Below are positions 12,447 through 36,928 of a stretch of 64,000 nucleotides of DNA, in pieces. The first letter of the stretch is position 1, and each line of letters begins with the position of its first letter. The notes beneath the pieces are model-generated. The model was not told the DNA's origin. It worked only from the letters and a program-made list of their open reading frames with translations, and did not search any database. The translations under genes were made by a program, and so were the position numbers. Origin of the DNA: a virus; the IMG/VR virus record IMGVR_UViG_3300037116_000062, positions 1 through 64,000 of that record. One strand, given 5' to 3'.

Positions 12447-12498
12447 CGGATTGGCCGATTTGGCTTTTTCGTCTACGACATACATTTTAGGAGGAGAC

Positions 12499-14877: not shown

Positions 14878-14885
14878 GAGGGGAA

Positions 14886-15617
14886 GTGATAACCCTAACG
14901 CTGAGTGGCGGGTTGGGCAACCAACTTTTTCAGTATGCATTTGGCCGATCGCTCATGGCAAAACACGACGTGACCTTTCTGCGGAATACTGGCGAGCGCG
15001 GATACCAACTGGGGAATTTCAACACGAAGGTGACCCTAGTCGATAAAGCGAACGGGCCATACCTCGATCAGCGAGATACGCGCTACAACCCAGACTATGC
15101 GAACCTGCCAGACCCGAGCACAGTGTGCTGTGGCTGGTGGCAAAGCGAGAAATATTTCTCAAACGTTTCCGCGGAACTCCGCGAAGAACTGACCCTCAAG
15201 AGTTGGCCGAGCCAATCCGCCCAGGACATAGCGCGTAAGATGCGCAACTGTGACAGCATCATTCTCTCGTTTCGACGAGGCGACTGTTACGAAACTGACA
15301 ACCGCCTGCCGATGAGTTACTACAACCACGCAATCGAACAGATGAGCGGATTGAAGGATCCACATCTGTTCATATTCAGTGACGTGCCGATCACCGAGAC
15401 GTTTCCGATCCCGGCTACGATCGTGCCGCATAGCACGCCTGGGGGCATCTGGCTCATGAGTATGTGCAAGCACGCCATCCTTGCGAATTCCACCTATCCG
15501 TGGTGGGGCGCATGGTTGAGACGTGAGGAAGGAATTACGATTGCCCCCAAGATGTGGTATCCCACGGGCGATCAGGACATAGTCCCCGAACGTTGGGCAC
15601 AAGTACAGAGTTTTTAG
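14886..15617 (+). CDS. GT11-family (alpha-1,2-fucosyltransferase-like) glycosyltransferase
   Basis: The 243-residue protein shows the GT11 hallmarks GGLGNQLFQYAFGR (8-21), the SFRRGDC donor-binding segment (family HxRRxDY) and NSTYPWWGAWL near the C-terminus. It transfers a sugar from a GDP donor, typically GDP-L-fucose; colitose is known for some members. The start is GTG at 14886 with AGGAGGGG directly upstream. It is followed at once by the GDP-mannose 3,5-epimerase gene. Confidence 0.88.
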   Translation: MITLTLSGGLGNQLFQYAFGRSLMAKHDVTFLRNTGERGYQLGNFNTKVTLVDKANGPYLDQRDTRYNPDYANLPDPSTVCCGWWQSEKYFSNVSAELREELTLKSWPSQSAQDIARKMRNCDSIILSFRRGDCYETDNRLPMSYYNHAIEQMSGLKDPHLFIFSDVPITETFPIPATIVPHSTPGGIWLMSMCKHAILANSTYPWWGAWLRREEGITIAPKMWYPTGDQDIVPERWAQVQSF

Positions 15618-15625
15618 GAGGGCGT

Positions 15626-16624
15626 ATGGCACGGATTCTCGTTACAGGCGCAGGTGGATTCATCGGACACCACTTGGTGAAGAAGTTGAAAGCCGCCGGG
15701 CATTTTGTCCGCGGCATTGACATCAAATATCCTGAGTACGAGAAGACCGCCGCGGACGAGTTCTGGATTAAGGATTTGCGTTGGGACTACAACGCTTTTG
15801 CTTCGTTCAATGGCGAACCGTTCTGCAACCGAGAGTTCGACGAAGTGTACAGCCTCGCGGCAGATATGGGCGGGATCGGGTACATCACTAGCCATCTCGC
15901 GGACATCGCACGGAACAACATCCTCATCAACGTGAACATGCTGGAAGCCGCGCGCCTCTTCGGAGTAAGCAAGTATCTCTATACATCCTCCGCGTGCGTG
16001 TACGCGCAGTCCAAACAGCACGACGCGAATGTCATCCCCCTCAAAGAGGAAGACGCATACCCCGCCGATCCCGAACCTGGGTACGGTTGGGAGAAACTGT
16101 TCGCTGAAGAAATGTGCAAGTACTACCGCAAAGACTTCGGGATGGACACGAAGATCGTGCGATTCCACAACGTGTACGGCCCCCTCGGAACATATGACGG
16201 CGGGCGTGAGAAATCCCCCGCGGCATTGAGCCGCAAGATCGCCAAGACCGCAGATGGTGGCGTTCTCGAAATTTGGGGTGACGGGAAGCAGACGCGCTCC
16301 TACATGTACATCGACGACTGCGTCAAAGGGCTCATGCACCTAATGGCGTCAGACTACCACGAGCCTTTGAACCTCGGCACGGATGAACTTCTTACCATTG
16401 ACCAGCAGGCGGAAATCACCTGCAAAGTGGCGGGCAAGACTCTTACCTTTCAGCACGACTTGACTAAACCGCAGGGCGTGCGCGGGCGCAACAGTGACAA
16501 CACGCGGCTCCGCGAAGTACTCGGATGGGAGCCAAAGACGACGTTCGCCGAAGGCATGGCAAAGACATATCCTTGGATCGCAGAACAGGTAACGTCCATA
16601 ACTATGGACACTAACCCCAGTTAG
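15626..16624 (+). CDS. GDP-mannose 3,5-epimerase-like enzyme
   Basis: The 332-residue extended SDR has NAD-binding GAGGFIG (8-14) and the family-specific LAADMGGIGYI (77-87). Catalytic residues known from plant GDP-mannose 3,5-epimerase are all present: C124 in SSACVY, Y153 and K157 in YGWEK, and K196 in GGREKSPAA. The GxGVRGRNSDN-type C-terminal signature is also there. The reaction converts GDP-D-mannose to GDP-L-galactose (and GDP-L-gulose). ATG 15626 follows AGGAGGGC. It sits between fucosyltransferase-family genes and other transferases. Confidence 0.88.
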   Translation: MARILVTGAGGFIGHHLVKKLKAAGHFVRGIDIKYPEYEKTAADEFWIKDLRWDYNAFASFNGEPFCNREFDEVYSLAADMGGIGYITSHLADIARNNILINVNMLEAARLFGVSKYLYTSSACVYAQSKQHDANVIPLKEEDAYPADPEPGYGWEKLFAEEMCKYYRKDFGMDTKIVRFHNVYGPLGTYDGGREKSPAALSRKIAKTADGGVLEIWGDGKQTRSYMYIDDCVKGLMHLMASDYHEPLNLGTDELLTIDQQAEITCKVAGKTLTFQHDLTKPQGVRGRNSDNTRLREVLGWEPKTTFAEGMAKTYPWIAEQVTSITMDTNPS

Positions 16625-16656
16625 CGACCATAACTGTGAACCCTAAGAAGGTGAGT

Positions 16657-16755
16657 ATGTGGATGAGGCGTTGCCCAAAGTGCGGCACGGATCTTCGCAA
16701 AAAACATCTAGGGGATATCCTGTGGTGTTTGTGTGGCTGGGTTTGGGGGGACTAA
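16657..16755 (+). CDS. Tiny zinc-ribbon protein
   Basis: A 32-residue frame runs from ATG 16657 (after AAGGTGAG) to a TAA immediately before the next ATG. It encodes CPKCG and, 15 residues later, CLCG, the spacing of a minimal zinc ribbon, with a Trp-rich end. It occupies the only gap between the epimerase and the next transferase. Confidence 0.45.
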   Translation: MWMRRCPKCGTDLRKKHLGDILWCLCGWVWGD

Positions 16756-17427
16756 ATGCCAAAGGTCTTAGTTGCCATATCTTCTTGTCAGAGTTATGAA
16801 GCATCTGGTCTGAATGACCCGATGCGCGAGACGTGGTTGACAGCCCTCCCCCAAGGCTGGGACTATAAGTTCTTCCACGGTCGCGGCGCACAGTCGAAGC
16901 ATGACGTCGTAGTACTTGACGTAGATGACGGGCTTGGCGGACTCACTGAGAAGGCGAAGGCAAAAGCGCGCTGGGCGATTGACAACGGATACGATTACAT
17001 CTTCTCCTGCTTCCCCGATACGTACGCGAACGCAGATCGTCTCGCGGCGAGCGGGTTTGAGAAGTTCGATTACCTCGGAAACGTATACAAGTTCCCGAAC
17101 GCGAACTCCAGTTTCTGTCAGGGCGGTCCTGGGTACTTCATGAGTCGCAAGTCTTGTGTGTATCTCGTAAACAATTCGGCCAGTTACCTGAACGACGATA
17201 CCTTCATCGGCGACACACTAAATCGCGCGGACATCCTGCGGTTCGACCACCGCGGCTTCACCACATGCGGCCCAGGTCCACTGAAGACAAATGACTCGAT
17301 CACGAACCACTTGAGCACGCAGCCCGGGGGGTTCACGGGGCACAACATGCGCGAGGAGCACGAGAGATGGCTAAAGTCTTTTACACATATTTGTGGCTCA
17401 GAGAAGACGGAACCCCCTACTATGTAG
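16756..17427 (+). CDS. GT31-like glycosyltransferase (paralogue 2)
   Basis: The 223-residue protein matches the plan of the genes at 12499 and 21928: MPKVLVAISSCQSYEASG, an R-ETWL segment, KAKARWAIDNGYDYIFSC and a GGPGYFMSRKSC acceptor-side motif. The metal motif is degenerate here (CFPDTYANADR where paralogues have DDD), so activity is uncertain. Its last 60 nt overlap the GIY-YIG gene, and the tail after about residue 203 is probably altered by that insertion. Confidence 0.6.
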   Translation: MPKVLVAISSCQSYEASGLNDPMRETWLTALPQGWDYKFFHGRGAQSKHDVVVLDVDDGLGGLTEKAKAKARWAIDNGYDYIFSCFPDTYANADRLAASGFEKFDYLGNVYKFPNANSSFCQGGPGYFMSRKSCVYLVNNSASYLNDDTFIGDTLNRADILRFDHRGFTTCGPGPLKTNDSITNHLSTQPGGFTGHNMREEHERWLKSFTHICGSEKTEPPTM

Positions 17428-17855
17428 GTAAAGGTTCTGGGAATAGGGGATTTACAAGCAAGAGACATAGGTTCAGACGCCCGCCCTGCGCCGAGCGTAT
17501 TGTTGCTCAGGAGTTTGTTTCAGAGAGGGATGCCCTCTTTGCCGAACAGTTGCTAATCGCCGTCTACGGAAGACAAGACCTCGGGACCGGGATATTGAGG
17601 AACCTAACAGATGGTGGAGACAACCCCCCTAGGGGCACCCCGTCCAGTTATGCTAAAGCGTCTCTGTCTCTACAAGGACGCCCCGGGGGTTTTAAGGGAC
17701 GCAGACATACTGAAGAGACGAGGGAAAAGATGCGCGCTGCTGCCGCTGCGATTGGCGCACGGAGGGGTCGCAATCGCGGTTTCCTTGTCTCCGAAGAGAC
17801 AAGAAAGAAACTGAGTGACCGAGCATGGCAACAACATCACCTGTTCGTATACTAG
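17367..17855 (+). CDS. GIY-YIG homing-type endonuclease 1
   Basis: The 162-residue protein starts with a GIY-YIG-like core, FYTYLWLREDGTPYYVGKG (5-23), with the conserved R and E further on (AERIVAQEF; LLIAVYG). The C-terminal GRRHTEETREKMR and LVSEETRKKLSD repeats are NUMOD3-like DNA-binding helices. It overlaps the upstream transferase by 61 nt and the downstream one by 31 nt, so it is wedged between them without its own spacer. It is a close relative of the gene at 20590. Confidence 0.85.
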   Translation: MAKVFYTYLWLREDGTPYYVGKGSGNRGFTSKRHRFRRPPCAERIVAQEFVSERDALFAEQLLIAVYGRQDLGTGILRNLTDGGDNPPRGTPSSYAKASLSLQGRPGGFKGRRHTEETREKMRAAAAAIGARRGRNRGFLVSEETRKKLSDRAWQQHHLFVY

Positions 17856-18481
17856 TTGGAGTCCCGTTCTTCCGCATCCCAGAACTATCGCGGCAGTGCT
17901 TGTCGTCCCTCATGGGGACACCCGCGGACATCCTTGCGATAGACAACGCCGCCGACGGCGACGTGAAGCAAGTCATCAGAGAATTCGGCAGCAGGGTGAA
18001 AGTCATATCGAACCCGACCAATGGATTTTGCAACGGTGGGTGGAATCAAATTCTGGAGTACGGTTTGGAGCACGAGTACGACATCATCGGACTCGGGTCT
18101 TCAGACGTAATCCTTCACAGGGGATGGTACGAATCCCTCGTAGCGCGCTCAACCGCCGCTACCGACGAGGTGTGGATCCCTCGGATAGGAACCCCGACAT
18201 CGGGAGTTGAAGTAGCCCAGAACATCGCGGGTTTCTTCACCTTCCTCCCGCTCGCCGCGGCGCGATTGGTTTGCCCAATCCCCCGAACGGTGAGGCATTG
18301 GTTTGGTGACCTGTACATGTTTCAGACGCTCCGCGCCGCGGGGTGGAAGACGGTCGTGTTGAACAGCATTTCCGCGGACCACAGTTGGTCTGCCGTCACC
18401 GCGAGAACACCTGAGGCTTATGCCGTAATTGCTCAGGACAAGATTGCATGGAGGGCCCTCGGATATCCGTGGGTCGATTAG
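17825..18481 (+). CDS. GT2-family glycosyltransferase
   Basis: The 218-residue protein starts as a typical GT-A enzyme (VRILVGVPFFRIPELSRQCLSSL), has LAIDNAADGD and NPTNGFCNGGWNQIL in the nucleotide-binding part, and GLGSSDVILHRGWYESLV at the metal-motif position, where DxD is replaced by SSD. Its start lies inside the end of the GIY-YIG gene. The sugar specificity is not visible. Confidence 0.7.
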   Translation: MATTSPVRILVGVPFFRIPELSRQCLSSLMGTPADILAIDNAADGDVKQVIREFGSRVKVISNPTNGFCNGGWNQILEYGLEHEYDIIGLGSSDVILHRGWYESLVARSTAATDEVWIPRIGTPTSGVEVAQNIAGFFTFLPLAAARLVCPIPRTVRHWFGDLYMFQTLRAAGWKTVVLNSISADHSWSAVTARTPEAYAVIAQDKIAWRALGYPWVD

Positions 18482-18488
18482 GGGGACT

Positions 18489-19355
18489 ATGAGAATCGAC
18501 GCGTTTCCGTTCAGTGATGAATTGAACATGCTGGAACTCAGACTCGGCCAACTGGACGAAGTCGTTGACAAGTTCGTTCTCGTAGAGACTGGCCGAACGT
18601 ACAGCGGTCTGCCTAAGCCGCGCTACTACCAAGAGAACAAGGAACGGTTCGCAAAGTGGAATCACAAGATCGTCGCGTCCGCCCCCGAGTTGGGCAACGC
18701 GGGATCCTGGGCATTCGAAGCGATCCAGCGGGAAGTCATCCCTGGCTTGATTCGCAGCTTCAACCCCGATCCGCAAAGCACGCTGACATTCTCTGATTTG
18801 GACGAGATCCCGAACCCCGAAGTCATCGCGTCGTACACGCCAGACATGGGATTGCGGAACCTCCTGCAGTGGACGTACTACTACAATTTCAATCGCCTGT
18901 TCAACTACGGCGAACGCTCATGGTCACGCGCACGCATCGGCACCGTCCAGCACATGTACGATCATGGCGCGGTCGGTTTCCGCGGCGGCTGGCCAGCAGG
19001 GCGCGACATGGATCACTCCTTCCCCTCCATCCCGAATGGTGGATGGCACGGGAGCTACTTTCACCCGACAGTTGACATCATCCGTAGGAAAGTCCACAGC
19101 ATCTCCCACGACGATTTGTGGGCCGAGTTCGACGCACGGACTGACGCGCAAGTTGCAGCAGACATCCACGAGGGCAAGGACATCTACCATCGCTACAACG
19201 CGACACGTGGCGTGGATTCGTTCTGGGGCACTTGGGTTGACACGGCTGGCGTAACTGCCGACCATCGTCTGCCGCCTTACTTCCTCGCGAATCAAGAGCG
19301 TTTCAAGATGTTCACGGACGCGCACTTCGTCGAGACGAACAAGCACCTATTCTAG
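18489..19355 (+). CDS. GT17-family glycosyltransferase
   Basis: The 288-residue protein fits the GT17 family (beta-1,4-N-acetylglucosaminyltransferase III type): it opens RIDAFPFSDELNMLELRLGQ, then VDKFVLVETGRTYSG, and has FSDLDEIPNPEV as donor-metal motif. These enzymes normally add GlcNAc to a mannose. The ATG at 18489 has GGGGGAC upstream. It is unusual to find this family in a phage. Confidence 0.78.
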   Translation: MRIDAFPFSDELNMLELRLGQLDEVVDKFVLVETGRTYSGLPKPRYYQENKERFAKWNHKIVASAPELGNAGSWAFEAIQREVIPGLIRSFNPDPQSTLTFSDLDEIPNPEVIASYTPDMGLRNLLQWTYYYNFNRLFNYGERSWSRARIGTVQHMYDHGAVGFRGGWPAGRDMDHSFPSIPNGGWHGSYFHPTVDIIRRKVHSISHDDLWAEFDARTDAQVAADIHEGKDIYHRYNATRGVDSFWGTWVDTAGVTADHRLPPYFLANQERFKMFTDAHFVETNKHLF

Positions 19356-19363
19356 GAGGAGTC

Positions 19364-20602
19364 ATGGGGATGCCGCCCTACGCATCAAATTTTAGCGAAG
19401 GGTTCATCCCAGGCGTCACCCCCGTCCTTTACTCGGGCCCCTACTGGGATCACCGCGAGTTGGAAATGGGGACGCAAGCGTTCCTCACGGGCAAGTGGCT
19501 CACGACAGGCGAGTACGTCGCCCGCTTTCAGAACAAGTTCGCCCAGCACTTTGGCGTGAAGTACGCGCACATGGTCAACTCGGGTAGTTCCGCGAATCTC
19601 GTGATGATCGCGGCGCTCAAGAAGCACATGGACTGGCAAGACGGAGATGAAGTCATCGTATCACCTGTTGGATTCCCGACAACGATTGCCCCACTTGTTC
19701 AGAACAATCTCAAGCCAGTTTTCGTCGACATCGAGATGAGCACGCTGAATTTCGACCTGAATTTGTTCAAATCGGCGATCACCCCAAAAACGGTAGCGAT
19801 TTTCGTATCGCCTGTTCTCGGCAACCCGCCGCACATGGACGAACTGAAGTCGATCGGCCTCCCCCTCATCGGGGACAATTGTGACAGCCTCGGCTCTAAG
19901 TGGAACGGGAAGTATCTCACTGAAGCCTACATCGCATGGAGCACTTCGTTCTACCCCGCCCACCACATTACGACGGGAGAGGGCGGAATGGTCTGCTCAG
20001 ACGACGCCGAACTCATGAAGACAGTGAAAAGCATGTCTTGGTGGGGCAGGGACTGCTACTGCGTGGGCGCAGCCAACCTTCTATCCTGCGGAACATGCGG
20101 CAAGCGTTTCGACAAGTGGATCGAGGGATCCGACTCTATCGTCGACCACAAATATCTGTTCACGAACATAGGCTATAACCTGAAACCGCTGGACATGCAG
20201 GGCGCAATCGGACTCGCGCAGATGGAGAAGATCGAGGAGATTGAACTCCTCCGCAGGAAGAACTTCCGCCAATTGGCCTGTCTGTTTGACATCCCAGGCG
20301 TGCGCGTGGCGACTTCCCATTCCCAAGCGGATGCATGTTGGTTCGGTGTTCCGATCATCTGCGATACCGCGGAGATCAAGAACAGCCTCGTCGCGCACTT
20401 GGAAGCGAACAAGATTCAGACTCGTCCGTACTTCGCGGGCAACATCCTACGCCACCCAGGATACAAAGCCTTGGGAGACGCGAGCATGTTCCCCAACGCA
20501 AATCAGGTGTGGGACAAAGTGTTCTTCATCGGTTGTCCGCCTCACTACGACAACACCATCATAGACTACATCGAGGGGGTTGTCGGGTCATGGAAAATCT
20601 AA
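19364..20602 (+). CDS. rfbH: RfbH/ColD-type PLP-dependent sugar 3-dehydratase
   Basis: The 412-residue protein is a DegT-fold enzyme in which the usual Schiff-base lysine is replaced by histidine (SFYPAHH, H200/H201), the hallmark of 3-dehydratases that remove the C3 hydroxyl of 4-keto-6-deoxy sugars. D171 is the expected cofactor contact. Cysteines C173, C231 and C233 are spaced C-X57-C-X1-C, as I recall for the [2Fe-2S] ligands of CDP-sugar E1/RfbH, with C242 or C245 as fourth; this favours the CDP-linked enzyme over cluster-free ColD. The next sugar gene, at 21087, fits the following reduction step. A GIY-YIG gene overlaps its last 13 nt. Confidence 0.85.
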   Translation: MGMPPYASNFSEGFIPGVTPVLYSGPYWDHRELEMGTQAFLTGKWLTTGEYVARFQNKFAQHFGVKYAHMVNSGSSANLVMIAALKKHMDWQDGDEVIVSPVGFPTTIAPLVQNNLKPVFVDIEMSTLNFDLNLFKSAITPKTVAIFVSPVLGNPPHMDELKSIGLPLIGDNCDSLGSKWNGKYLTEAYIAWSTSFYPAHHITTGEGGMVCSDDAELMKTVKSMSWWGRDCYCVGAANLLSCGTCGKRFDKWIEGSDSIVDHKYLFTNIGYNLKPLDMQGAIGLAQMEKIEEIELLRRKNFRQLACLFDIPGVRVATSHSQADACWFGVPIICDTAEIKNSLVAHLEANKIQTRPYFAGNILRHPGYKALGDASMFPNANQVWDKVFFIGCPPHYDNTIIDYIEGVVGSWKI

Positions 20603-21090
20603 CTTTTTACACATATTTGTGGCTCCGAGAAGATGGCACTCCCTACTATGTCGGGAAGGGAACAAAAAAGCGTGCATGGCGTAAAGGGAGCCCTCCGTCA
20701 GAACGTGTCCTAATCCAAGAGTTCCCTTCTGAAGAAGACGCCTTCCTGTCTGAAAGATTTCTTATCGCCCTGTACGGGCGTGAAGATTTGTTAGAAGGAT
20801 GTCTCATAAATCTTACAGATGGTGGCGATAATCCGCCCCTAAGTACCCCCGCAAGTAGGGCGAAGGCGGCAGCGACGACAAGAGGTCAGAAGCGACCTCC
20901 GCTTACGGCGGAATGGAGACGAAAAATATCCGAAGCTAAGAAAGGCAAGCCCCGTCCGTGGGAAGTGCTGACTGAATCGTCAAAGAAAAAGATTTCGATG
21001 GCCTTACGAGGTCGAACAGGTATTCCAAGAAGTCATAAAGGAAAACCTTGGTCTATCGCCCGACGAGCCGCTTATGAGAAGATGATATGA
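20590..21090 (+). CDS. GIY-YIG homing-type endonuclease 2
   Basis: The 166-residue protein has FYTYLWLREDGTPYYVGKG (6-24) nearly identical in DNA and protein to the gene at 17367, followed by ERVLIQEF and RFLIALYG, then helical repeats (WRRKISEAKKGK, SSKKKISMALRGR). Its ATG lies 13 nt inside the RfbH gene end and its TGA overlaps the next ATG, so the insertion is seamless. Confidence 0.85.
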   Translation: MENLTFYTYLWLREDGTPYYVGKGTKKRAWRKGSPPSERVLIQEFPSEEDAFLSERFLIALYGREDLLEGCLINLTDGGDNPPLSTPASRAKAAATTRGQKRPPLTAEWRRKISEAKKGKPRPWEVLTESSKKKISMALRGRTGIPRSHKGKPWSIARRAAYEKMI

Positions 21091-21959
21091 GCCTTACTAT
21101 TTTGGGCGGACGAGGTTTCGTCGGCAGCAATTACGTGAAAGCCTTCTACGACCCCGCGGTCGGCAACATCGCATCGATCAACGGTCGCGATAACTACAAC
21201 GTCTTCAGTAAGGACGTCCTGTACTTTATCAGCACCGTTCACAACTACCACGTGTTTGACGCGCCCTTGCGTGACATCGACACGAACCTGACCACCCTTG
21301 TTCAGGTGCTGGAATCATGGAGAGCGCGCCCTGACGCGCGTGATGGGGTGTTCAACTTCATCAGTTCATGGTTCGTTTATGGAGGCAGCAAAATTCGGCA
21401 CGACGTTCACGAGAGCGAGTATTGTGACCCGAAGGGGTTCTACTCGATCACCAAGCGTTGCGCGGAGCAACTGCTCGCATCCTACTGTGCGACGTACGGG
21501 CTGAAGTATCGCATCCTGCGATTGGCCAACGTCCTCGGGGATGATCTGAAAGCGTCCGCGAAGAAGAACGCGCTGCAGTATATGATCGGCCAGTTGAGCA
21601 GGAACGAACCTGTGCAGATCTACGGCACGGGCGACTTCCACCGGGATTACATCCATGTGAACGACTGCGTGACCGCGATCGACCTCGTCATCACCCACGG
21701 CGATCTGAATCAGATCTACAACATTGGCAACGGGAAGACGTGGAAGTTCAAGGATATCATTCAGCACGTCCGCGAACGCCTGGGCTCTAAGAGCGACGTA
21801 ACATTCATAGAGCCAAAAGATTTCCACAAGATTGTGCAGTCCACCAGCTTCTATATGAACGTGGACAGTTTGAAAGGGTTGGGTTACATCCCCACATTGA
21901 CGGAGGAGACATTATGGGAGTCAACCTATGAAAACTTTGATAGCAGTGGTGAATGCTAG
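21087..21959 (+). CDS. NAD(P)-dependent sugar epimerase/reductase, RfbJ-like
   Basis: The 290-residue extended SDR has GGRGFVGS (7-14), FISSWFVYGG with the catalytic serine region, and YSITK as YxxxK. The ISSWFVYG and GFYSITKRCAEQLL segments resemble abequose/paratose-synthase-like SDRs that reduce the product of RfbH to a CDP-3,6-dideoxyhexose. Together with the preceding RfbH-like gene it would complete a dideoxysugar from a CDP-4-keto-6-deoxyglucose supplied by the host. The exact product is not determined. Confidence 0.7.
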   Translation: MSLTILGGRGFVGSNYVKAFYDPAVGNIASINGRDNYNVFSKDVLYFISTVHNYHVFDAPLRDIDTNLTTLVQVLESWRARPDARDGVFNFISSWFVYGGSKIRHDVHESEYCDPKGFYSITKRCAEQLLASYCATYGLKYRILRLANVLGDDLKASAKKNALQYMIGQLSRNEPVQIYGTGDFHRDYIHVNDCVTAIDLVITHGDLNQIYNIGNGKTWKFKDIIQHVRERLGSKSDVTFIEPKDFHKIVQSTSFYMNVDSLKGLGYIPTLTEETLWESTYENFDSSGEC

Positions 21960-22680
21960 ACACCGCAGTGATTGGCGCGAGAGAATTCGCAAGACATGGG
22001 GCCCGCAAGTTCCCAGAGACTTAGGCGTTGACGCCTTTTTCTTTGTGGGGCGCGGCGCACCTATCGCTGACATGGACAGCGTGGTCGAACTCGACTGCAA
22101 TGACGACTACAAGTCGATCCCAGAAAAGGTACGATCGGTCGCAAAATGGGCCCGCGAGCACGGGTATCACTACATGCTCAAGTGCGACGATGACGTCGTC
22201 CTTCGCCCCAAAGATTTCGCAGCAAGCGGGTATGAGGCGCACAAGTATTCAGGTCGGGCCAACCGCCCGCCGCAACCGTACACAGTGCCCTACGGGTTCT
22301 GCTACGTGTTGGACGGCGAGTGTATGGATGTGGTTATCCAGAGCCCGCTGCCCACGGGTCACCCCGAGCCGTTCGACGACGAGCGGTGGGTCGCAGAGAT
22401 CCTGTGGAACCGAAACATCTCACTCACGGACGTGCGCAGGTATCAACTCTGCCACTACGTGAACTACGACAGGGATCCAAAGAACGCTTTCGCCTTCTGC
22501 ATCCATCTACCCGATGCCCAGGCGGTCAAGCTGCTTGAGTACGACAAGGTTTTCGCTCGATATGGCGACTCTGCTGGCGTCCCCTCGCTGGCCTTGCGCA
22601 ACGGGCAGGAGTTCGTGAATCGCCGACGAGGCTACGCGGACAACACCAATCTAGTTCAGAACTGGTGGGACACACATTAG
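21928..22680 (+). CDS. GT31-like glycosyltransferase (paralogue 3)
   Basis: The 250-residue protein is the third GT31-like copy: MKTLIAVVNARHRSDWRERI, RKTWGP, then MLKCDDDVVLRPKDFAASG with an intact DDD. VPYGFCYVLDGECMD and DDERWVAEILW correspond to the acceptor and catalytic-acid region. Its start is 32 nt inside the preceding SDR gene. It closes the sugar island. Confidence 0.72.
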   Translation: MKTLIAVVNARHRSDWRERIRKTWGPQVPRDLGVDAFFFVGRGAPIADMDSVVELDCNDDYKSIPEKVRSVAKWAREHGYHYMLKCDDDVVLRPKDFAASGYEAHKYSGRANRPPQPYTVPYGFCYVLDGECMDVVIQSPLPTGHPEPFDDERWVAEILWNRNISLTDVRRYQLCHYVNYDRDPKNAFAFCIHLPDAQAVKLLEYDKVFARYGDSAGVPSLALRNGQEFVNRRRGYADNTNLVQNWWDTH

Positions 22681-25776: not shown

Positions 25777-26967
25777 ATGGCATCACCTAACCCAACCACA
25801 GGCCTGGGCGTAGCGACGAACGTAGTTCTCACGGGCACGGGCGTAGTTCGCACAGTCCCCAAAGTCGCGGGCACCCGCGGCGTAAGCGAGTTCTCAGTTT
25901 CGATTCCGATCGGCGGCACCGTGCAGATCACGGCCCTCCCGTTCGATGACGCGGGCAACGCAGTATCCGTCGGCAATGGCGGGCTGTTGGACGCCCATCT
26001 CGGCACCGCTGCGAATTTCGCCATCCTCGGCGCAAGCGCGGTCACAGGCAGCACTGGTGGCGGATCCACCATTAGCGGCGGAAACCTCGGTATCGCTCCG
26101 AACAACTCTTCGTCTGTCACGAACTTCCCGCCTTCCGTTCTGGTCGCCCCTGGCGTGGCTCATTACGCTGACGCGGTCGCGACACAGGCGCAGGTAGATT
26201 TGGCCGCGGCTATCGTCTACTTCCAAGGATTGACCCCGACCCTGTCGGGCCTTGGCAACCTTTCAGTCGGCGGCAACGGTTCGACCGCTGCAACTTACAC
26301 CGCTGGGAACTATTTCGGCGCGTCAAGTCTCGACATCCCTACCAGCATCACTCTGGACGCACAGGGCAATCCGAATGCAGTCTTCGTATTCGTGGCGGGC
26401 TCGACCATCACGCTGGAAAGCGGCGCATCGGTCATTCTCGCGAACGGAGCATTGGCCAGCAACGTCTATTGGGTGAACGGATCATCCTTCACTTCAGTCG
26501 ACGGCGGCGTCTCTGCTATGGTCGGAACGATCATGGCGCACACGTCTATCACGCTGGGTGGCGGAACCCTTTCGGGTCGCGCACTCGCGAACGTGGGCGC
26601 GGTTACCTTGAGCACGACCGAGGTTATCACGGTCCCTCCGACGGGCGTCACCCCCGGAGTTGGATACACAAACGCAGTGACCTTCGCCAGCGCACCGATC
26701 AGTGTCCCCGCGTGGTACAGGCCGAGTGCACAGGGCAAGAATTATCCTGGCGCATACATGGCTCCCGCAGTCGTGGACGACAACGACGCGAACCCGTGGA
26801 CGGTTCGCGGGCGCAGCGCAGGCCAGACGGTTATTGACTTCCAGATCCCGACCTTCGGGAATACGGAAGGTCAGAGTTTGGTGGACGTGAACGCAGTCAT
26901 GGACGAAACGTTCATCGACACTATTTACGCTTCTCTGCTCGTGACGGTCACAGGCGGCACAAGCTAA
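25777..26967 (+). CDS. Virion-type protein with an inserted DUF3494 (ice-binding family) domain
   Basis: The 396-residue protein contains a complete DUF3494-type domain at about 73-287: GTAANFAILGASAVTG, ISGGNLGIAP, TNFPPS, AQVDLAAAIVYF, NAVFVFVAGSTITLESGA, VYWVNGSSF, GTIMAHTSITL and GRALANVGAVTLS follow the family in order. The flanks (about 20-70 and 298-396) look like one Ig/BIG2-type domain, similar to the decoration protein at 35876, so the DUF3494 unit seems inserted into its loop. DUF3494 proteins bind ice or act as adhesins; no signal peptide is present, consistent with a particle component. Confidence 0.78.
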   Translation: MASPNPTTGLGVATNVVLTGTGVVRTVPKVAGTRGVSEFSVSIPIGGTVQITALPFDDAGNAVSVGNGGLLDAHLGTAANFAILGASAVTGSTGGGSTISGGNLGIAPNNSSSVTNFPPSVLVAPGVAHYADAVATQAQVDLAAAIVYFQGLTPTLSGLGNLSVGGNGSTAATYTAGNYFGASSLDIPTSITLDAQGNPNAVFVFVAGSTITLESGASVILANGALASNVYWVNGSSFTSVDGGVSAMVGTIMAHTSITLGGGTLSGRALANVGAVTLSTTEVITVPPTGVTPGVGYTNAVTFASAPISVPAWYRPSAQGKNYPGAYMAPAVVDDNDANPWTVRGRSAGQTVIDFQIPTFGNTEGQSLVDVNAVMDETFIDTIYASLLVTVTGGTS

Positions 26968-27495: not shown

Positions 27496-27553
27496 TTACC
27501 CGATGGAGGGCGAGGCTAGTCCCTCGCCCAACTCTAGACTAGGAGAGATTATG
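27493..27553 (+). promoter_or_regulatory. Candidate RBS-sequestering pseudoknot, HNH gene at 27551
   Basis: After TAATTACCCGA (27493-27503) an 8-bp stem GGGCGAGG/CCTCGCCC (27508-27515, 27522-27529) exposes loop CTAGTC. That loop is complementary to GACTAG (27537-27542), which overlaps the Shine-Dalgarno AGGAGAG. The same layout with different bases occurs at 36442-36511, so base pairing appears conserved. Confidence 0.6.
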
Positions 27554-28015
27554 CCTTACAAAACCAAAGAAGAAAAAGCTGCGTATGACCATGCCCGAGT
27601 AGCACAAAATCGAGAAGAAAAATCTGCTTATGATAAAAACTATCGTAGCACTCACCGCACGGAAAAAGACGCGTACAGTCGCAAACATCATCTTCAGAAG
27701 AACTTCAATCTGTCTTTTCAAAAATTTTTTGAGATGCTTACTGCACAGGATAATAAATGTGCCCTTTGTAGTGACTTATTCGAAGTAACTCCCGCTATCG
27801 ACCACGACCATTCGTGTTGCTCAGGAGTTAAGAGTTGCGGTAAATGTGTCAGGGGATTGCTCTGTCACCGTTGCAATACCGCTCTTGGAAGTTTCAGAGA
27901 TTCTCCAGAACTTCTTCGCAAAGCAGCAGATTACATAGAAAGAAAACGAAACGAGAATTTCAATGTCCCCATTTCGCTCGAAAGCACAAGCGGGCTACCT
28001 ACACAGTCATCCTGA
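27551..28015 (+). CDS. HNH endonuclease, endonuclease VII-like (1)
   Basis: The 154-residue protein has a helical Lys/Arg-rich N-terminus and the recombination-endonuclease-VII core: CALC, AIDHDHSCCSG, CGKCVRGLLCHRCNTALGSFRDSPELLRKAADYI. This gives a beta-beta-alpha metal nuclease with paired zinc cysteines, common in free-standing phage homing endonucleases. The ATG at 27551 follows AGGAGAG. Its last 53 nt overlap the next gene, so it was inserted tightly. Confidence 0.87.
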   Translation: MPYKTKEEKAAYDHARVAQNREEKSAYDKNYRSTHRTEKDAYSRKHHLQKNFNLSFQKFFEMLTAQDNKCALCSDLFEVTPAIDHDHSCCSGVKSCGKCVRGLLCHRCNTALGSFRDSPELLRKAADYIERKRNENFNVPISLESTSGLPTQSS

Positions 28016-28446: not shown

Positions 28447-29142
28447 ATGGGAATCTATGACAAAGTAGTCAACGCCGCGAAGGGTGCTGCCGCCGCAGTG
28501 AAAGCGGGCAACTCTGAGACGGAAGGTATTGGAAGCGAACTCGCCGAGCGCGCGAAAATGAATCGCCTCGCGATGGGAAAGAGCGACGAAGCAAAGCCTG
28601 TCGACAAGGAATCAGTCAGCCCGACCGCTGGCGGAAACTCCCCCTACGGATCCCGTAAGGGTGAGAAGAAATTGGACACGTCCTATCTGGACAAGCCCAC
28701 CGCGGTCAAAGCCCCCGTGTACGACAAGGGCGGCAAGATTATCGGGGGAACCAACATCCCAGCCCGCGTTTATGATAAGGGCGGCAAAGTCGATGTGAAT
28801 GACGGCAAACACCAAGTCGCGATTCTCAAGGAAGGCGAACGCGTTCTGACTGAGAAGCAGGACAAAGAGTATCAGAAGACGAAGGGCGAGCACGCCGAGC
28901 CCGACGCGGACGACTATGACGACGGCGGAAAGGTTCACACGCCTGAAGAGAAAAACCACTTCGCCCGCTCTATGAACCATCTGAACGCAGGTGGGTTGCA
29001 CCGTCACCTGGGCATTAGTGAAGACAAGCCGATTCCCCACTCTAAGAAAGTGGAAGCGTCAAAATCTGACAACCCACACGTTGCTGCGATGGGACGCCTT
29101 GCGGTTGCGATGTCGGGATGGAAACACCCCAAAAAGAAATAG
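28447..29142 (+). CDS. Charged low-complexity protein upstream of terminase
   Basis: The 231-residue protein is Lys/Asp/Glu/Gly-rich with repeated YDKGGK motifs (VYDKGGKIIGG, VYDKGGKVDVN, YDDGGKVH). These repeats are its most distinctive feature. It could be a small-terminase analogue or a minor head protein, but no helix-turn-helix is seen. The next gene starts 11 nt after its stop. Confidence 0.5.
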   Translation: MGIYDKVVNAAKGAAAAVKAGNSETEGIGSELAERAKMNRLAMGKSDEAKPVDKESVSPTAGGNSPYGSRKGEKKLDTSYLDKPTAVKAPVYDKGGKIIGGTNIPARVYDKGGKVDVNDGKHQVAILKEGERVLTEKQDKEYQKTKGEHAEPDADDYDDGGKVHTPEEKNHFARSMNHLNAGGLHRHLGISEDKPIPHSKKVEASKSDNPHVAAMGRLAVAMSGWKHPKKK

Positions 29143-29153
29143 TCGGAGGATCT

Positions 29154-31145
29154 GTGAACGTAAACGAACTGGTAGGCTTAGTCCAGAAACACAAGAACGA
29201 CAAAAACTACCAGTTCCGAGACTGGTCGTGGGAGCAGATTGACGCTGCCGCAAAGACCAGTTTCGATCGAATCACACCCGATCAGAAAATCCAAGTCATG
29301 AAGGTCTGTGCAGCCTATGGGCTCACGGACTCGAAGCAGATCGTCCGCTTCCGATTCATGGCGCAAACAAACCTTTTCTTTCTCTGCAAGCTGCTGGGGA
29401 CTTACAAGGACGTCTCGGACAAAGAGTATGTCTGGACGGATGGCAAGGTTCACAATACGCATGAGGAAATTTGCAATTCTTTTTTCGTAGAAAAGAACCC
29501 GACGTTCCCCTCATTCAAAGAGTTCGCGGCCCAGTACATCGATAAGAAAGAGCGTCTTCTGCTCGTACCCCGCGGCGGCTACAAGTCGTCGATGGATATG
29601 GCGGATTGCGCCCAGTGGGTGATCAACTTCCCCGAAGTGACTATCCTCGTACTCTGCGGAGTCCTCGCCCTGGCGAATGACTTCGTCGGCGAAATCAAGG
29701 GACACTTCACGTTAGAGCAAGGCGGGTCCGCGGGGCTGTTTGGTAAAACCCCTCTGCGCCCGAGAACGATGCACAGTGGTACTGGATCCATGTTTCAAGT
29801 CCTGTTCCCAGAGCACTGCATCGCGCCTGACACAGGCAAGAGTGATGAATATCAGACCCCAGCCGTCGCTGTCCGAGAGAAGGAAGGCACTGTATCTGCT
29901 GCCTCTATCGAACAGAGTCTGACAGGCTGGCACGTGTGCGTTCTGAAACTGGATGACGTTGTCACCAACGAAAACTCCCAGACTGTTGACCGCATGCGGA
30001 ACATCAACAAGCAAGTCAGCATCAACCAAGCCATGTTGCACCCGTACGGATTTTACGACAAGATCGGAACGTGGTACGACACTGAAGATACTTACGGTCA
30101 AGACATCAAGAGTTCCAAGAAGTACGCCGAAGACGGCGAAGACTTCCCGATGAAGATCTACATCCGTGCCGCGTGGTGGGCAACGGAAGACGCGATCAAG
30201 CAAGGTAAGATCGCGGACGAGATGGTTGAGACGGATTACAACTATTGGTTCAACGATCCGACCAACGCATCCTCGCTGACGTTCAAGTTCCTCAACCACA
30301 AGCGGAAGACCGATCCGTGGTACGCGATTAAGTACCTCAACGATCCGACGCAGATGCATGTGATCAAGTTCCCGCGAGAACTCCTCGTGCGGCGCACTAT
30401 CAACGCGGTCGAACTCCCCAGCACAGGGATGATCGTCTCCTGCGTTGACACGGCCTACTCGACCAAGACTTGGGCGGATTACACGGTCATCATCACCTCG
30501 CTGATTTACGGCGGGCGCTTCTACATCATTGACATGAAGCGTGGGCGATACAACGAATACGAACTCCCCGCAATGATTGCAGCGACGGCCCAGCAATGGA
30601 AGCCGAAGCGAATCTGCATCGAAGAAACTGGAGCGATCAAGTACATCCAGCGGGAAGTCTATCGTGAGATGGACAAACTGAAGGTGCGGGTTCCAATCGA
30701 ACTCGTCCCCCTCGGTCAAGGCAGCAAGGCCACTTCGAAGAAAACGAAAGCAGGCCCCGTCCTCAGGTTCCTGGGAGACGACAGGCTGCGGTTCATCAAC
30801 ACCTGCCCGTTTCTAGAAGACCTGTACGACGAACTCTCCAAGTTCGGTACGGCGGCAAGCACCCACGACGATATCGTGGATGCTCTGTCCATCCTCATAA
30901 ATCAGTTCTCATCCTACGCTGACATCGAAGGAAAGATGACGGCGTCCGGCGCGGGGTTTACCTCCGACCAGAAGATGCAGAACGCGCACAATCTGATGCA
31001 CTGCGACGGTAAGTACGGGAAACTGAATCAGCGGAACGACGTTCAACTGGAGTTCCCCGACCAATCACCGCAGTCCCTATCAAGAGACGCGGCATTAGAT
31101 GCGTATGAGGCATCCCAAGATCCATTGGGCGAACTTTTTGGTTAA
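29154..31145 (+). CDS. terL: Terminase large subunit
   Basis: The 663-residue packaging motor has a T7-like layout. The ATPase has a Walker A variant VPRGGYKSS (138-146) and a Walker B-like VLKLDDV (about 262-268). The nuclease domain shows SCVDTAYSTKTWADY (first catalytic Asp about 431), RICIEETGA (about 483-491) and STHDDIVDAL (about 568-577). It cuts and pumps DNA into the prohead at the portal. The start is GTG 29154 after GGAGGATCT. The small subunit is not identified. Confidence 0.92.
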   Translation: MNVNELVGLVQKHKNDKNYQFRDWSWEQIDAAAKTSFDRITPDQKIQVMKVCAAYGLTDSKQIVRFRFMAQTNLFFLCKLLGTYKDVSDKEYVWTDGKVHNTHEEICNSFFVEKNPTFPSFKEFAAQYIDKKERLLLVPRGGYKSSMDMADCAQWVINFPEVTILVLCGVLALANDFVGEIKGHFTLEQGGSAGLFGKTPLRPRTMHSGTGSMFQVLFPEHCIAPDTGKSDEYQTPAVAVREKEGTVSAASIEQSLTGWHVCVLKLDDVVTNENSQTVDRMRNINKQVSINQAMLHPYGFYDKIGTWYDTEDTYGQDIKSSKKYAEDGEDFPMKIYIRAAWWATEDAIKQGKIADEMVETDYNYWFNDPTNASSLTFKFLNHKRKTDPWYAIKYLNDPTQMHVIKFPRELLVRRTINAVELPSTGMIVSCVDTAYSTKTWADYTVIITSLIYGGRFYIIDMKRGRYNEYELPAMIAATAQQWKPKRICIEETGAIKYIQREVYREMDKLKVRVPIELVPLGQGSKATSKKTKAGPVLRFLGDDRLRFINTCPFLEDLYDELSKFGTAASTHDDIVDALSILINQFSSYADIEGKMTASGAGFTSDQKMQNAHNLMHCDGKYGKLNQRNDVQLEFPDQSPQSLSRDAALDAYEASQDPLGELFG

Positions 31146-31154
31146 GGGAGTGAT

Positions 31155-33284
31155 ATGGATGACGCTTTGATTGTATCTGACGGCAATGCCGATCAACACC
31201 TGACGACCGATAGCGTCAACAAAGACGGCATGATGAAGACGGTCGACCTAGACCTGTCCCTCGTCGTGCAGTCCGCGAGGATGTCCAAAGCGTTCATTTC
31301 GAACAAGCAATGGACACTCCTGTGGCGCGACGCTGACCTACTGTTCCAATCACCCCGACCGATGTCGACGTACGAAAATACGTACGTCCTTGAACCCAAC
31401 GTTCAGCGGTTCACGGTCGCGAAGGTCTGCAACGCGGTAGTTCCGCAACTTTACAAGGGTCTGTTCTACGATGACCCACCGATGTTACTCCGCCCGCGTC
31501 CTGGCACAAGTCAGAAGACGATCGACGCGAAGACAGCGATGTTCTCGTTCGTCCTCGACCAATGCGACTTCAAGAACCACGTCAAGTGGGGCTTGGAACA
31601 GATGGCCCACCAGGGAACGGGAATTTTCAAGTGGGGTTACGACTGGAAAGAGATTACCACTATCAAGCGCAAGGCGACTACGATCAAGGTAGAAGCCCCG
31701 CAGCCTGATGGGACCACAGACACTATTCACATCCCGAGTGACGAATCGCCGAGTATTACAGAAACGAGCAAGGTTCTACCCTTGCCGTTCTTCGAGTGGC
31801 GGCCCTTGGACAAAGTCCTTGTCGACTCGCAACTGGCGGTCAGCGATATCCGCATGGCGCGCTGGGTGATCGACGTCCGATACATGGACTGGTATCAGCT
31901 TAGTGACATCAAGAAGGCGATCGACGACGCGCGCGAAGCTGGTGAGACAGGCGCGGCAATCGAAGGATGGGACTTCCCAGACGACGCTGCCCTCAAGGCG
32001 ATGTGGGATCGGCCATTCAACGGCACGACCAATGAGGTGACGCAAGCCTCCTACATGGAAGGCATCATCCATCACAGCGAGAAGGAAAATCAGGACACCA
32101 GTCCCGACCCTCTCCGCCGCAAGATGGAAGTCCTCGAATACTGGGACAAGGGACGAAAGATCCTGGCCCTGAACGAAGAGAAAGTAATCTTCCGCGGCAA
32201 GAACGAATTCAAACGAATCCCGTTCCTGAGTGCGAACTGGTGGAACCGACCCCGTGCATTTTACGGCATGGGACTTGGGCTCATCGTGGGACAGAATCAA
32301 CGCGTCGACCAAGGCACCATTAACGCCATTCTTAAGATTCTGTCGTATGGCGTCAACCCTATCTATCTCCGCAATCGATCGGAGAACGCACCAACTCAGA
32401 CCATCCGCACCAACCTCGGCAAGATCATGTCGGTGACGGATGTGAAAGAATCATACGCCCTACTTGAGCAACCCAAAGTCCCCTCGGACATCTGGGGAGC
32501 GATCAAGGAAAGCGAATCGGCCACCGAGTCTTCCTCGGGCGCAGACCAAACGCTCGTACAGGGCAGTTCGGCTGGACCCCGTGCAGGTATGGGACGCTCC
32601 GCTACAGGCGCAAACCTGATGGCTGGCGCGTCCGCAACCCGACTGGACGGCCCGCTCGATAACTTCATCGAGCAGGTGTTCAAGCCGTGGTTGAGCATCA
32701 TTGACATGCTCGTGTTCAACTTCATGTCGGATGCCGCCATCCTCCACGTCCTGGGCAAGGAAATGGGTACGGAGTTCCTAACGGACGCCGACAGCCCGTT
32801 CCAGATCCAAGACTACCACGATGCTCAGATCGAGTACGAAGTGCTTGCTGGATCCTCACTCGCTGCAAAGCGGACGATGGCCCAGAGCATGGTCATGCTC
32901 ACCCAGATCCTCGACAACCCGAACATCCAGTCAATGCTGGCCGAAGCGGGCAAGAAGATCAACATCGAAGCAATCATCTCGATGTGGCTCGAAGCAAGCG
33001 AATGGAAGAACAAGAACGACATCGTTGTTCCGATGTCCCCCGCGGACATCCAGAAGCGGGATGCGAACTCAAAAGCCGCACTCCAGCAGCAACAGATGCA
33101 AATGAAACAGCAAGGCGACCAAGCAAAGTTCGCCGAGAAACAACAGTTGGAAGACCAAGCAAGTGACAACCGTATTAAGCGCGACATCACCCGAGAAGCA
33201 GCGAAGGCATCTTCGCTGAGTCAGACGGTTGAAGGCGTGCCGAGTACGGGTGGCTTGCAAGGTCAGATGCCGACTGTTGAGTAA
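31155..33284 (+). CDS. Portal protein
   Basis: The 709-residue protein directly follows the terminase and has portal-like composition: an alpha/beta N-terminal part with conserved Trp-rich segments (WTLLWRDADLLFQSPRP; FFEWRPLDKVLVD), a central GMGLGLIVGQNQRVDQGTIN helix region and a Gln/Lys-rich helical C-terminal barrel. It would form the dodecameric ring at the DNA-entry vertex. The start follows GGGAGTGAT. Confidence 0.85.
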   Translation: MDDALIVSDGNADQHLTTDSVNKDGMMKTVDLDLSLVVQSARMSKAFISNKQWTLLWRDADLLFQSPRPMSTYENTYVLEPNVQRFTVAKVCNAVVPQLYKGLFYDDPPMLLRPRPGTSQKTIDAKTAMFSFVLDQCDFKNHVKWGLEQMAHQGTGIFKWGYDWKEITTIKRKATTIKVEAPQPDGTTDTIHIPSDESPSITETSKVLPLPFFEWRPLDKVLVDSQLAVSDIRMARWVIDVRYMDWYQLSDIKKAIDDAREAGETGAAIEGWDFPDDAALKAMWDRPFNGTTNEVTQASYMEGIIHHSEKENQDTSPDPLRRKMEVLEYWDKGRKILALNEEKVIFRGKNEFKRIPFLSANWWNRPRAFYGMGLGLIVGQNQRVDQGTINAILKILSYGVNPIYLRNRSENAPTQTIRTNLGKIMSVTDVKESYALLEQPKVPSDIWGAIKESESATESSSGADQTLVQGSSAGPRAGMGRSATGANLMAGASATRLDGPLDNFIEQVFKPWLSIIDMLVFNFMSDAAILHVLGKEMGTEFLTDADSPFQIQDYHDAQIEYEVLAGSSLAAKRTMAQSMVMLTQILDNPNIQSMLAEAGKKINIEAIISMWLEASEWKNKNDIVVPMSPADIQKRDANSKAALQQQQMQMKQQGDQAKFAEKQQLEDQASDNRIKRDITREAAKASSLSQTVEGVPSTGGLQGQMPTVE

Positions 33285-34777: not shown

Positions 34778-35809
34778 ATGAGTTTTTCTCCTAGCGGCAA
34801 CCAACTCAGTAACCTGCCCCAGTCCACGGTGAAGTACTACGACAAAAGATTCCGTGAGAACCTGAAGGCGCAGACCCCCTTCGTCCGTTGTTCCGAGCGT
34901 TTGGAACTGCCGATGAAGTCCGGTAACCAGTACGAACTGTTCATGTACGTTCCGCTGGCTGCCAACACCACGCCGACCACCGAAGGCACCGTGGGTTCGT
35001 CTCTGAGCATCAACGTGCTCACGAACACCGCGACCATCGGCGAGTACGCGGATTACGCCAACTTCTCGTCCTTGTCTCTCGCTACCGCGATCGACAACAC
35101 GGTCGAGAACGTCGCGAAGGAAATGTCCTATCGCTTGGGCGAGTCCCTCTCGGCTCTGGTGCGCGCGACTGCAGACGGTGCGAACAGCATCGACTCCAGC
35201 GTGCTGACTCAGCTTGCTGCGTCGAGCACCTCCAGCTTCACCGCCCTGTCGTTGTCTCAGATTCGCAACAGTGTCCAGTCTCTGGCTGGCCGCAGTGTGC
35301 GTCCGTTCAACGAGGCGAAGAAGACCTTCGCTGGCGTGATCCATCCGTTCGCTCTCGGCGATGTCCTCGCCGACAACAGCAACGACTCCCCCATCGACAT
35401 CCTGAAGCACACGCCTCAGGGTCAGATGAAGATGGAAGACCTGATCTCGGTCGATCTGACCGAAGTCATCGAACTGCCCTCCACGGGCGTGGAATTCCTG
35501 CAGACCAACTTGGTCACGCAGACCACGAACTACAAGGGTCAGACTGGTCTGACTGCTCTCCGTACCTACATTTTCGGTAAGGACGGCATTTTCTCCATCA
35601 ACCTGGGAGCCACCAACGACACCACCTTCGGTGATGGCGATTGGCGCAACATTAAGTGCAACGTGGTTCAGAACGCCGAGCCGACGGTTGCCGATCCCGA
35701 AGGGTTGATCCCTGGCTGGACCTCGTATCGTGTGCACTTCACCACGAGCTTGGGCCCAGACACCACCATCCGCATCCGTGAGATTGATGCGGCTTCGGCC
35801 ATCAGCTAA
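34778..35809 (+). CDS. Major capsid protein, N4-gp56 type
   Basis: The 343-residue protein matches the N4-gp56-like HK97-fold capsid family by its start (NLPQSTVKYYDKRFRENL, then TPFVRCSERLELPMKSGN) and the sequence of segments GAYADY-like IGEYADY, GESLSALVRATADG and HPFALGDVLADN. Codon use is strongly biased to C-ending codons, fitting high expression. A terminator follows at once. Confidence 0.88.
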   Translation: MSFSPSGNQLSNLPQSTVKYYDKRFRENLKAQTPFVRCSERLELPMKSGNQYELFMYVPLAANTTPTTEGTVGSSLSINVLTNTATIGEYADYANFSSLSLATAIDNTVENVAKEMSYRLGESLSALVRATADGANSIDSSVLTQLAASSTSSFTALSLSQIRNSVQSLAGRSVRPFNEAKKTFAGVIHPFALGDVLADNSNDSPIDILKHTPQGQMKMEDLISVDLTEVIELPSTGVEFLQTNLVTQTTNYKGQTGLTALRTYIFGKDGIFSINLGATNDTTFGDGDWRNIKCNVVQNAEPTVADPEGLIPGWTSYRVHFTTSLGPDTTIRIREIDAASAIS

Positions 35810-35875: not shown

Positions 35876-36418
35876 ATGGCTAATCCTTCTCCCCAACCCA
35901 CCCCCACGAGCGGCGTGGGCACTGCAGCGTACGTCCAAGTTAGCGGAACGAACGTCGGCAACTGCTCACAGCCAGTCGCAGGGACAGGGCAGGGCACGGG
36001 CGCGATTCCTTCCACGAATCACCCTGTTGCGCAGTACGCACTCACGTTGAGTCTGGCAGCTAAGACCATCAACGGGGTCGCGTATGCTGCCACCTGCCAG
36101 TTGACCACGACCATTAAGGACGTGGCAGGCACGACTTTCACGGGCACCAATAGCCCTGTGTACAAGTCGTATGCGGATCCAGTCGGCGCTTGGTACAACC
36201 CGAGCAACGTTCCCGCCCCCGCGGGCGCGCCCGCATACAGCGGTCTGATCGCTTCCGTCAGCGGCAGCGGTTTGATCACTGGTTTGCACGTTGGCCAGTG
36301 CATCGTTGAAGTGCAGTACTCGACTTTCGACGATGTGCAGAACCCCGCGACCAACACGGGAACGGGCAATCCGTGGGCGATGATCTATGCACAGATCGTC
36401 GTCAACGTTGTGCCCTGA
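35876..36418 (+). CDS. Decoration-type protein with Ig/BIG2-like domain
   Basis: The 180-residue beta-rich protein follows the capsid gene, the usual position of a head decoration protein. Its C-terminal half (CQLTTTIKDVAGTTFTG, then GLITGLHVGQCIVEVQYSTF and AQIVVNVV) follows a BIG2-like pattern and resembles the flanks of the DUF3494 protein at 25777, suggesting paralogy. Confidence 0.62.
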   Translation: MANPSPQPTPTSGVGTAAYVQVSGTNVGNCSQPVAGTGQGTGAIPSTNHPVAQYALTLSLAAKTINGVAYAATCQLTTTIKDVAGTTFTGTNSPVYKSYADPVGAWYNPSNVPAPAGAPAYSGLIASVSGSGLITGLHVGQCIVEVQYSTFDDVQNPATNTGTGNPWAMIYAQIVVNVVP

Positions 36419-36441: not shown

Positions 36442-36511
36442 TAATTACCCGAAGCCAGAGCGACCAGCACCTAGAATGCTGGTCGCTCGCTCTTTTCTAG
36501 GAGAGAATATG
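36442..36511 (+). promoter_or_regulatory. Terminator/pseudoknot element before HNH gene at 36509
   Basis: TAATTACCCGA (36442-36452) precedes a perfect 12-bp stem (36458-36469 with 36477-36488). Its 7-nt loop CCTAGAA is fully complementary to TTCTAGG (36495-36501), which overlaps the Shine-Dalgarno AGGAGAG. The stem is also followed by CTCTTTTCT, so it can act as a terminator of the capsid/decoration transcript. Confidence 0.65.
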
Positions 36512-36928
36512 CCCCGAAACACTGAAGCAGGAAGGCTCGCGTACAACAAATACATGCGAGAATATCGAAAGCGCCCCGAACAAGCCGCTAAAGAAACCGC
36601 ACGAAAAGCGGCTTGGATAGCGGCAAACCCAGAGAACGCGGAGAAACACCGTTTGAGCAGGTTTCGCGCCGCGAGAAGGGCCAGATGGGGTAACCCAGAA
36701 GAGTACGCCGCACGTCTCGCTAAACAGAATGGTTTGTGTGCGCTCTGTGGCGAACCTTTTGACGACACTAAGTTAGGCAGCCCTGTTCAAGATCACGACC
36801 ACGATACTGAAGAACTAAGAGAATTTTTGCACTGCCGTTGTAACCTTGCGATAGCAAATCTGCTGGATAGCCCTAGCGGATGTCGCAAAGCAGCGGAGTA
36901 TTTAGAGAAGCACGGGAGGAGAGGATGA
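36509..36928 (+). CDS. HNH endonuclease, endonuclease VII-like (2)
   Basis: The 139-residue protein has an Arg/Lys-rich helical N-terminus (AYNKYMREYRKRPEQAAKE) and the core CALCGEPFDD, QDHDHDTEELREFLHCRCNLAIANLLDSPSGCRKAAEYL. The ATG at 36509 follows AGGAGAGAAT. Its stop overlaps the start of a tiny membrane protein, again a seamless insertion. Confidence 0.85.
   Translation: MPRNTEAGRLAYNKYMREYRKRPEQAAKETARKAAWIAANPENAEKHRLSRFRAARRARWGNPEEYAARLAKQNGLCALCGEPFDDTKLGSPVQDHDHDTEELREFLHCRCNLAIANLLDSPSGCRKAAEYLEKHGRRG

Follow-up and report, generated by a model that had tools for sequence, protein, structure and literature searches.

The known DUF3494 (Ice_binding, PF11999) domain is found here in a setting that is new within the open-access literature searched: phages have it in common and exchange it among themselves. 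At least 22 viral sequences carry one strongly supported DUF3494 clade on at least five protein backbones, and this clade is spread over phages whose terminases and head proteins differ. The starting point is a 396-aa protein encoded at 25777-26967 (+) of the window, the whole stretch of 64,000 nucleotides analyzed, which comes from an IMG/VR virus contig of 70,119 bases. The best-supported reading of the domain is an exchangeable, virion-displayed adhesive module, for which ice is the leading but unproven ligand.

The reading frame of the 396-aa protein is open throughout its 396 codons, as the sequence-only reading had given it. Residues 83-283 match PF11999 in Pfam with 121 bits (E 6.4e-35; cut-off 28.7 bits), and the match spans profile positions 1-207 of 208, that is, its full length. 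All 13 PDB sequences that match the protein are DUF3494/ice-binding proteins. Using only proteins from the window and viral contigs as input, AlphaFold2 modelled the DUF3494 part (residues 71-287) at a pLDDT of about 70-94 as a discontinuous three-faced β-solenoid with a bracing α-helix; a long helix covers residues 133-150. The model aligns (VIA-align) with the Antarctic fungal protein AnpIBP (7bwx) at Z 31.2-31.4 and an rmsd of 1.3 Å over 200 residues, and with the other DUF3494 structures listed at Z of about 28-31. The protein thus carries a full-length DUF3494 domain, assigned to residues 73-287 (25993-26637, +) from the Pfam and PDB matches and the model. Profile, fold, tree and selection together rule out a chance or low-complexity match. 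An assembly chimera of a bacterium and a phage was also rejected, because the same architecture is found again in separate contigs. The GC content of the insert is similar to that of its flanks.

The sequences on either side of the DUF3494 domain each form half of a single BIG2-like decoration domain, given that both the joined flanks and the separate flank profiles match the decoration family. The N-terminal half comprises residues 1-72 (25777-25992, +) and the C-terminal half residues 288-396 (26638-26964, +). On the joined flanks the decoration-family profile scored 27.4 bits, whereas the best of 1,980 scored shuffles reached 10.5 bits. Profiles of the N-flank or the C-flank alone match decoration ORFs that are 176-247 aa long and lack DUF3494 in many relatives, the C-flank profile matching such uninterrupted ORFs with E values down to 3e-13 and the N-flank profile matching the window's own uninterrupted decoration-type paralogue (35876-36418, +; E 4e-6), which lies directly 3' of the major head protein gene. 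The break in the 396-aa protein falls between FDDAGNAVS (residues 56-64) and AWYRPS (residues 312-317), for which the counterparts in the plain paralogue are IKDVAGTTF (from residue 80) and AWYNPS (from residue 105). Pairwise BLASTP between the two proteins is weak. As the flanks have a pLDDT below 50 in the full-length AlphaFold2 model, sequence profiles, not that model, are the basis for the split domain. When the full protein was aligned jointly with plain decoration proteins, the middle strands came out misplaced, and that alignment was not used for folding.

The plain paralogue, modelled from 23 relatives at a pLDDT of 65, has Big_2 or Ig-like domains as its best structural matches (Z up to 9.5), and the model also resembles the Ig-like parts of Douge gp8, N4, phi29, lambda gpV and T5 pb6. 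Pfam Big_2 (PF02368) matches six of 23 decoration-family members (best E 8e-5), the protein encoded at 35876 having no match itself; the BIG2 assignment of the family is good but short of certain. PHROGs gave no clear family for the 396-aa protein or for the backbones that bear the domain. Three claims of the sequence-only reading therefore held: a full-length DUF3494 domain at residues of about 73-287 (Pfam, PDB matches and model), its insertion into a BIG2-like domain (flank profiles, with the reservation on the BIG2 label given above), and the kinship of the flanks with the decoration protein at 35876 (profiles, direct BLASTP being weak). A structure prediction lacking the DUF3494 β-solenoid would have refuted it; the solenoid was found.

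The flat B-face typical of DUF3494 ice binders is kept in the window protein, ice binding itself being untested. Its B-face strands, aligned to those of AnpIBP, are SSVT, SAVTGS, GAVTLS, TSITLG, SSFTSV, STITLE and SSLDIP; 23 of the 27 outward residues are Ala, Gly, Ser or Thr, and the fourth column reads TTTTTTD, a ladder of six Thr. In AnpIBP, the B-face substitutions S153Y and T156Y reduce activity to 17% (PMC7277481). These four residues make up 86% of the B-face in the 22 phage rows versus 48% elsewhere, and 90% versus 46% in the bacterial rows. Two B-face strands of the window lineage include an Asp and a Glu (SSLDIP and STITLE). The kept B-face does not distinguish ice binders from other DUF3494 proteins, because PF11999 is found in many environments without ice as well (PMC12337378), and bacterial relatives of unknown activity have the same B-face composition. 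The phage domain is under purifying selection, with dN of 0.04-0.19 against dS of 0.42-1.65. By eye and hydropathy, without a dedicated predictor, no leader or signal peptide is evident in the proteins of the window, L009, L018, L020 and L043, whereas the bacterial DUF3494 relatives have clear leaders, which argues against a secreted host-protection protein.

Scans of IMG/VR located 28 loci encoding a domain of this kind, and further loci were reached through relatives of the decoration gene and the terminase. In a careful tree a branch supported at 100/100 separates the 22 phage DUF3494 rows from all others, and a quick tree agrees (support 98). The nearest bacterial matches, mostly from Actinomycetota, reach 50% identity. 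In the phage rows shown, a GGNGSTAA segment (residues 165-172 of the window protein; 26269-26292, +) follows the helix; it is missing from the bacterial rows shown. Based on flank comparison, the domain is borne on a decoration domain with an internal insert (backbone A: the window, L008/L009, L010, L030/L031, L036, L043 and L044), on large probable tail proteins of 1.3-1.6 kaa (B: L011, L025, L028, L032 and L034), on a family of about 280-345 aa (C: L012-L017, L021-L024, L026, L027 and L035), on a 360-aa family (D: L019, L020 and L029), on backbone E (L018) and on a fragment, backbone F (L033). The labels A, B and C each change three times on the tree, indicating that the history of the domain differs from that of its backbones. 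A relative of the window terminase is found in only three of 14 domain-bearing contigs, some of which may be fragments, and the head proteins of domain-bearing phages belong to different PHROGs (phrog_1357 and phrog_9953). Outside these viral contigs, tblastn with three queries found no match in GenBank phages, and plasmids gave only ordinary actinobacterial DUF3494 forms of less than 60% identity. The only strong matches in a viral structure library were the DUF3494 proteins of the giant Hyperionvirus.

The window record belongs to a tailed phage, as its terminase large subunit gene (29118-31145, +; phrog_38, E 1e-42) indicates. This gene is followed by a portal-like (head-tail adaptor) gene (31155-33284, +; phrog_332 and phrog_156) and the major head protein gene (34778-35809, +; phrog_1357, E 8e-16), and this arrangement, with the decoration gene after the head protein gene, is conserved in the window lineage. 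In the window the DUF3494 gene is upstream of the terminase, with a phosphatase-like gene after it, and does not adjoin the head genes. In L043, L036/L037, L044, L009, L030 and L031, the DUF3494-bearing paralogue adjoins the decoration gene. In unrelated phages, the DUF3494 gene lies directly 3' of the head protein gene (L018) or is separated from it by one gene (L022) or two (L013). The domain is optional in the window lineage. Relatives such as L139, L145, L151, L155, L157, L160-L163, L167 and L169 extend more than 1.1 kb past the decoration gene yet have no DUF3494 paralogue there, and seven whole records whose decoration gene stands without one contain no PF11999. The large probable tail protein is likewise found with and without the domain. 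Four contigs of the window lineage (G001, G011, G012 and G026) have two PF11999 copies, one of them within a protein of about 1.6 kaa, and the window counterpart of that protein (43817-48082, +), with 46% identity, has no insert: its site at 47627-47698 is empty where the homologues in L028, L032 and L034 have DUF3494.

One locus may record a second acquisition of the domain. L147, which belongs to the window lineage by its terminase, encodes at 992-2500 a bacterial-type DUF3494 (PF11999, E 1e-58) that lacks the phage-only segment, within another protein that has a fibronectin-like start; the gene is upstream of the terminase and adjoins a similar phosphatase-like gene. Flank comparison grouped L147 with backbone A; by eye, the only likeness is an extra domain in common with L010. 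It looks like a separate acquisition, and if real this would favor selection for the DUF3494 domain, though an independent origin was not demonstrated (p-AU 0.258). The products of L010 9284-10906 and L147 992-2500 have in common a small repeated domain (about GSAVYTGNIVGGNSSAYAGVTFVVTGF...), possibly another exchanged module.

Several further features of these genomes were observed. Free-standing homing-type endonuclease ORFs of the Endonuclease_7, HNH with AP2 and NUMOD3 types are found in the window at 85-576 (-), 17367-17855, 20572-21090, 27503-28015, 36476-36928, 48159-48752 and 61200-61727, the last without a Pfam match. Several of them adjoin structural genes, and in relatives similar endonuclease genes lie directly 5' of decoration-type genes. 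An endonuclease-like ORF at 43327-43836 and the tail-type gene just downstream (43817-48082) begin with the same 12 residues, MSQIAANGGQPQ, nine of the 12 codons differing by synonymous changes only. The endonuclease appears to have been inserted after codon 12 of the tail gene, together with a recoded version of that gene's first codons; the tail gene of relatives L171-L176 begins with the same MSQIAANGGQPQ motif. Neither L009 nor L031 showed such a start-duplicating endonuclease at its DUF3494 gene. In L031 (6814-8757), L009 (7913-8707) and L147 (11354-12868), the head protein match is shortened or split across two ORFs, possibly by introns or inserted genes. Genes resembling sugar-nucleotide epimerases, an aminotransferase and glycosyltransferases (ORFs read by eye) at 12322-22680 of the window may form a glycosylation island.

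In the explanation we favor, the 396-aa protein would be a second, altered copy of the BIG2-like protein that decorates the capsid of this phage. Its split BIG2-like domain would anchor it to the head, and the DUF3494 solenoid, set in a loop of that domain, would face outward from the particle as an adhesive module. Given the kept flat B-face, rich in Thr, Ser, Ala and Gly, the leading ligand would be ice or ice-like water. Attachment to ice may let virions stay close to hosts associated with ice or concentrated by freezing, or may help the particles survive freezing. As a whole this explanation could as readily be wrong as right; display, anchoring and ice binding are all inferred. Its parts differ in strength. 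Presence on the virion, which the sequence-only reading had claimed, is likely and strongly suggested because relatives keep the gene by those for the head and decoration proteins, the phage proteins lack an evident signal peptide, and the domain is found on other probable virion proteins; this is an inference from gene neighbors and homology, without virion proteomics. Against display stand the lack of particle proteomics or structure and the position of the window gene upstream of the terminase, away from the head genes. The mode of anchoring to the head is likewise inferred. If the protein is displayed, ice is modestly favored as the ligand, without binding data; the claim that the domain could bind ice, particles or host glycans is not settled. 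Also counting against the explanation are the Asp and Glu in two B-face strands of the window lineage, the fact that bacterial relatives in general have this B-face composition, and the occurrence of PF11999 where there is no ice. A bolder reading, that several unrelated phage lineages display an exchangeable ice-binding domain on head and tail proteins and that their particles attach to ice, falls slightly short of an even chance in our view.

The main rival keeps the same anatomy with another ligand. It is possible that the displayed solenoid attaches to glycans of the host surface, to extracellular polymer, or to mineral or organic particles, acting in receptor binding or retention. Phage adhesion domains are usually exchanged between backbones and present in only some relatives, PF11999 occurs in ice-free places (PMC12337378), and ComZ of Thermus, a proposed DNA receptor, bears an ice-binding-like solenoid whose ice-binding face is not conserved (PMC6561018). 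However, the window protein keeps the B-face pattern of ice binders, which ComZ does not, and none of the close structural matches is known to bind glycans. A second alternative, which appears unlikely, is a structural add-on that spreads by recombination and neighboring homing endonucleases and gives the head bulk or stability without a specific ligand. Endonuclease genes adjoin decoration-type genes in several relatives and are near the window gene too, and the domain is optional. Against this are the strong purifying selection, the kept B-face and the finding that the domain has neither duplicated ends nor repeats at its borders, apart from a single 8-base match taken as chance. Finally, an auxiliary gene whose product the infected host would make and secrete as protection from freezing, as three PF11999 genes of Arctic viral contigs have been read (PMC11515562), is very unlikely, as the phage proteins have no evident signal peptide while their bacterial relatives have leaders, the domain is fused to decoration-type and probable tail proteins, and the genes are located among virion genes in relatives.

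Among known systems, the DUF3494 proteins AnpIBP (7bwx), EfcIBP (6eio) and FfIBP (4nu2) have the same solenoid and bracing helix (Z of about 29-31), and the window protein resembles DUF3494 ice-binding proteins in its full-length profile match, small-residue B-face and Thr column. It differs from them in that the domain sits in a phage decoration-type domain without an evident signal peptide, GGNGSTAA follows the helix, and ice binding is only inferred. The flanks and the plain paralogue are similar to the Ig/BIG2-like decoration domains of the phages listed above, but here the displayed part would be an ice-binding-type solenoid inside the Ig-like domain. A functional analogue is T4 Hoc, in which variable domains are displayed on a capsid-binding domain (PMC10385173). 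In ComZ, a Thermus thermophilus competence pilin, an ice-binding-like solenoid is also inserted in a structural (pilin) domain of a surface appendage (PMC6561018; Z 13.4 to the window model), but ComZ is cellular, is longer and more irregular, and lacks conserved ice-binding-face residues, and DNA is its proposed ligand (PMC6561018). The Hyperionvirus proteins are also virus-encoded, but by a giant virus of eukaryotes and not a phage. The Arctic vOTU genes are virus-encoded as well; they were read as host cryoprotection, and the relevant sections report no virion fusion (PMC11515562). Synechococcus phage S-SKS1, tied to homologues in that study, has no PF11999 match. No paper on DUF3494 together with phage was found in the open-access literature searched, subscription papers and preprints being outside its scope, and other searches of that literature returned only the Arctic auxiliary-gene paper as relevant.

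The DUF3494 fold thus joins the small set of domains, like Ig-like domains, that are swapped between phage virion proteins, and viral PF11999 genes now assigned to host cryoprotection are worth checking for fusion to virion proteins. If ice binding is true, a link between viruses and freezing would be directly testable through partition into ice, freeze-thaw survival and host encounters in brine channels. If another ligand is the true one, a widespread fold would gain a tractable ligand other than ice. Should the bolder reading be true, attachment to ice would be a virus lifestyle that, as far as our searches reach, is undescribed.
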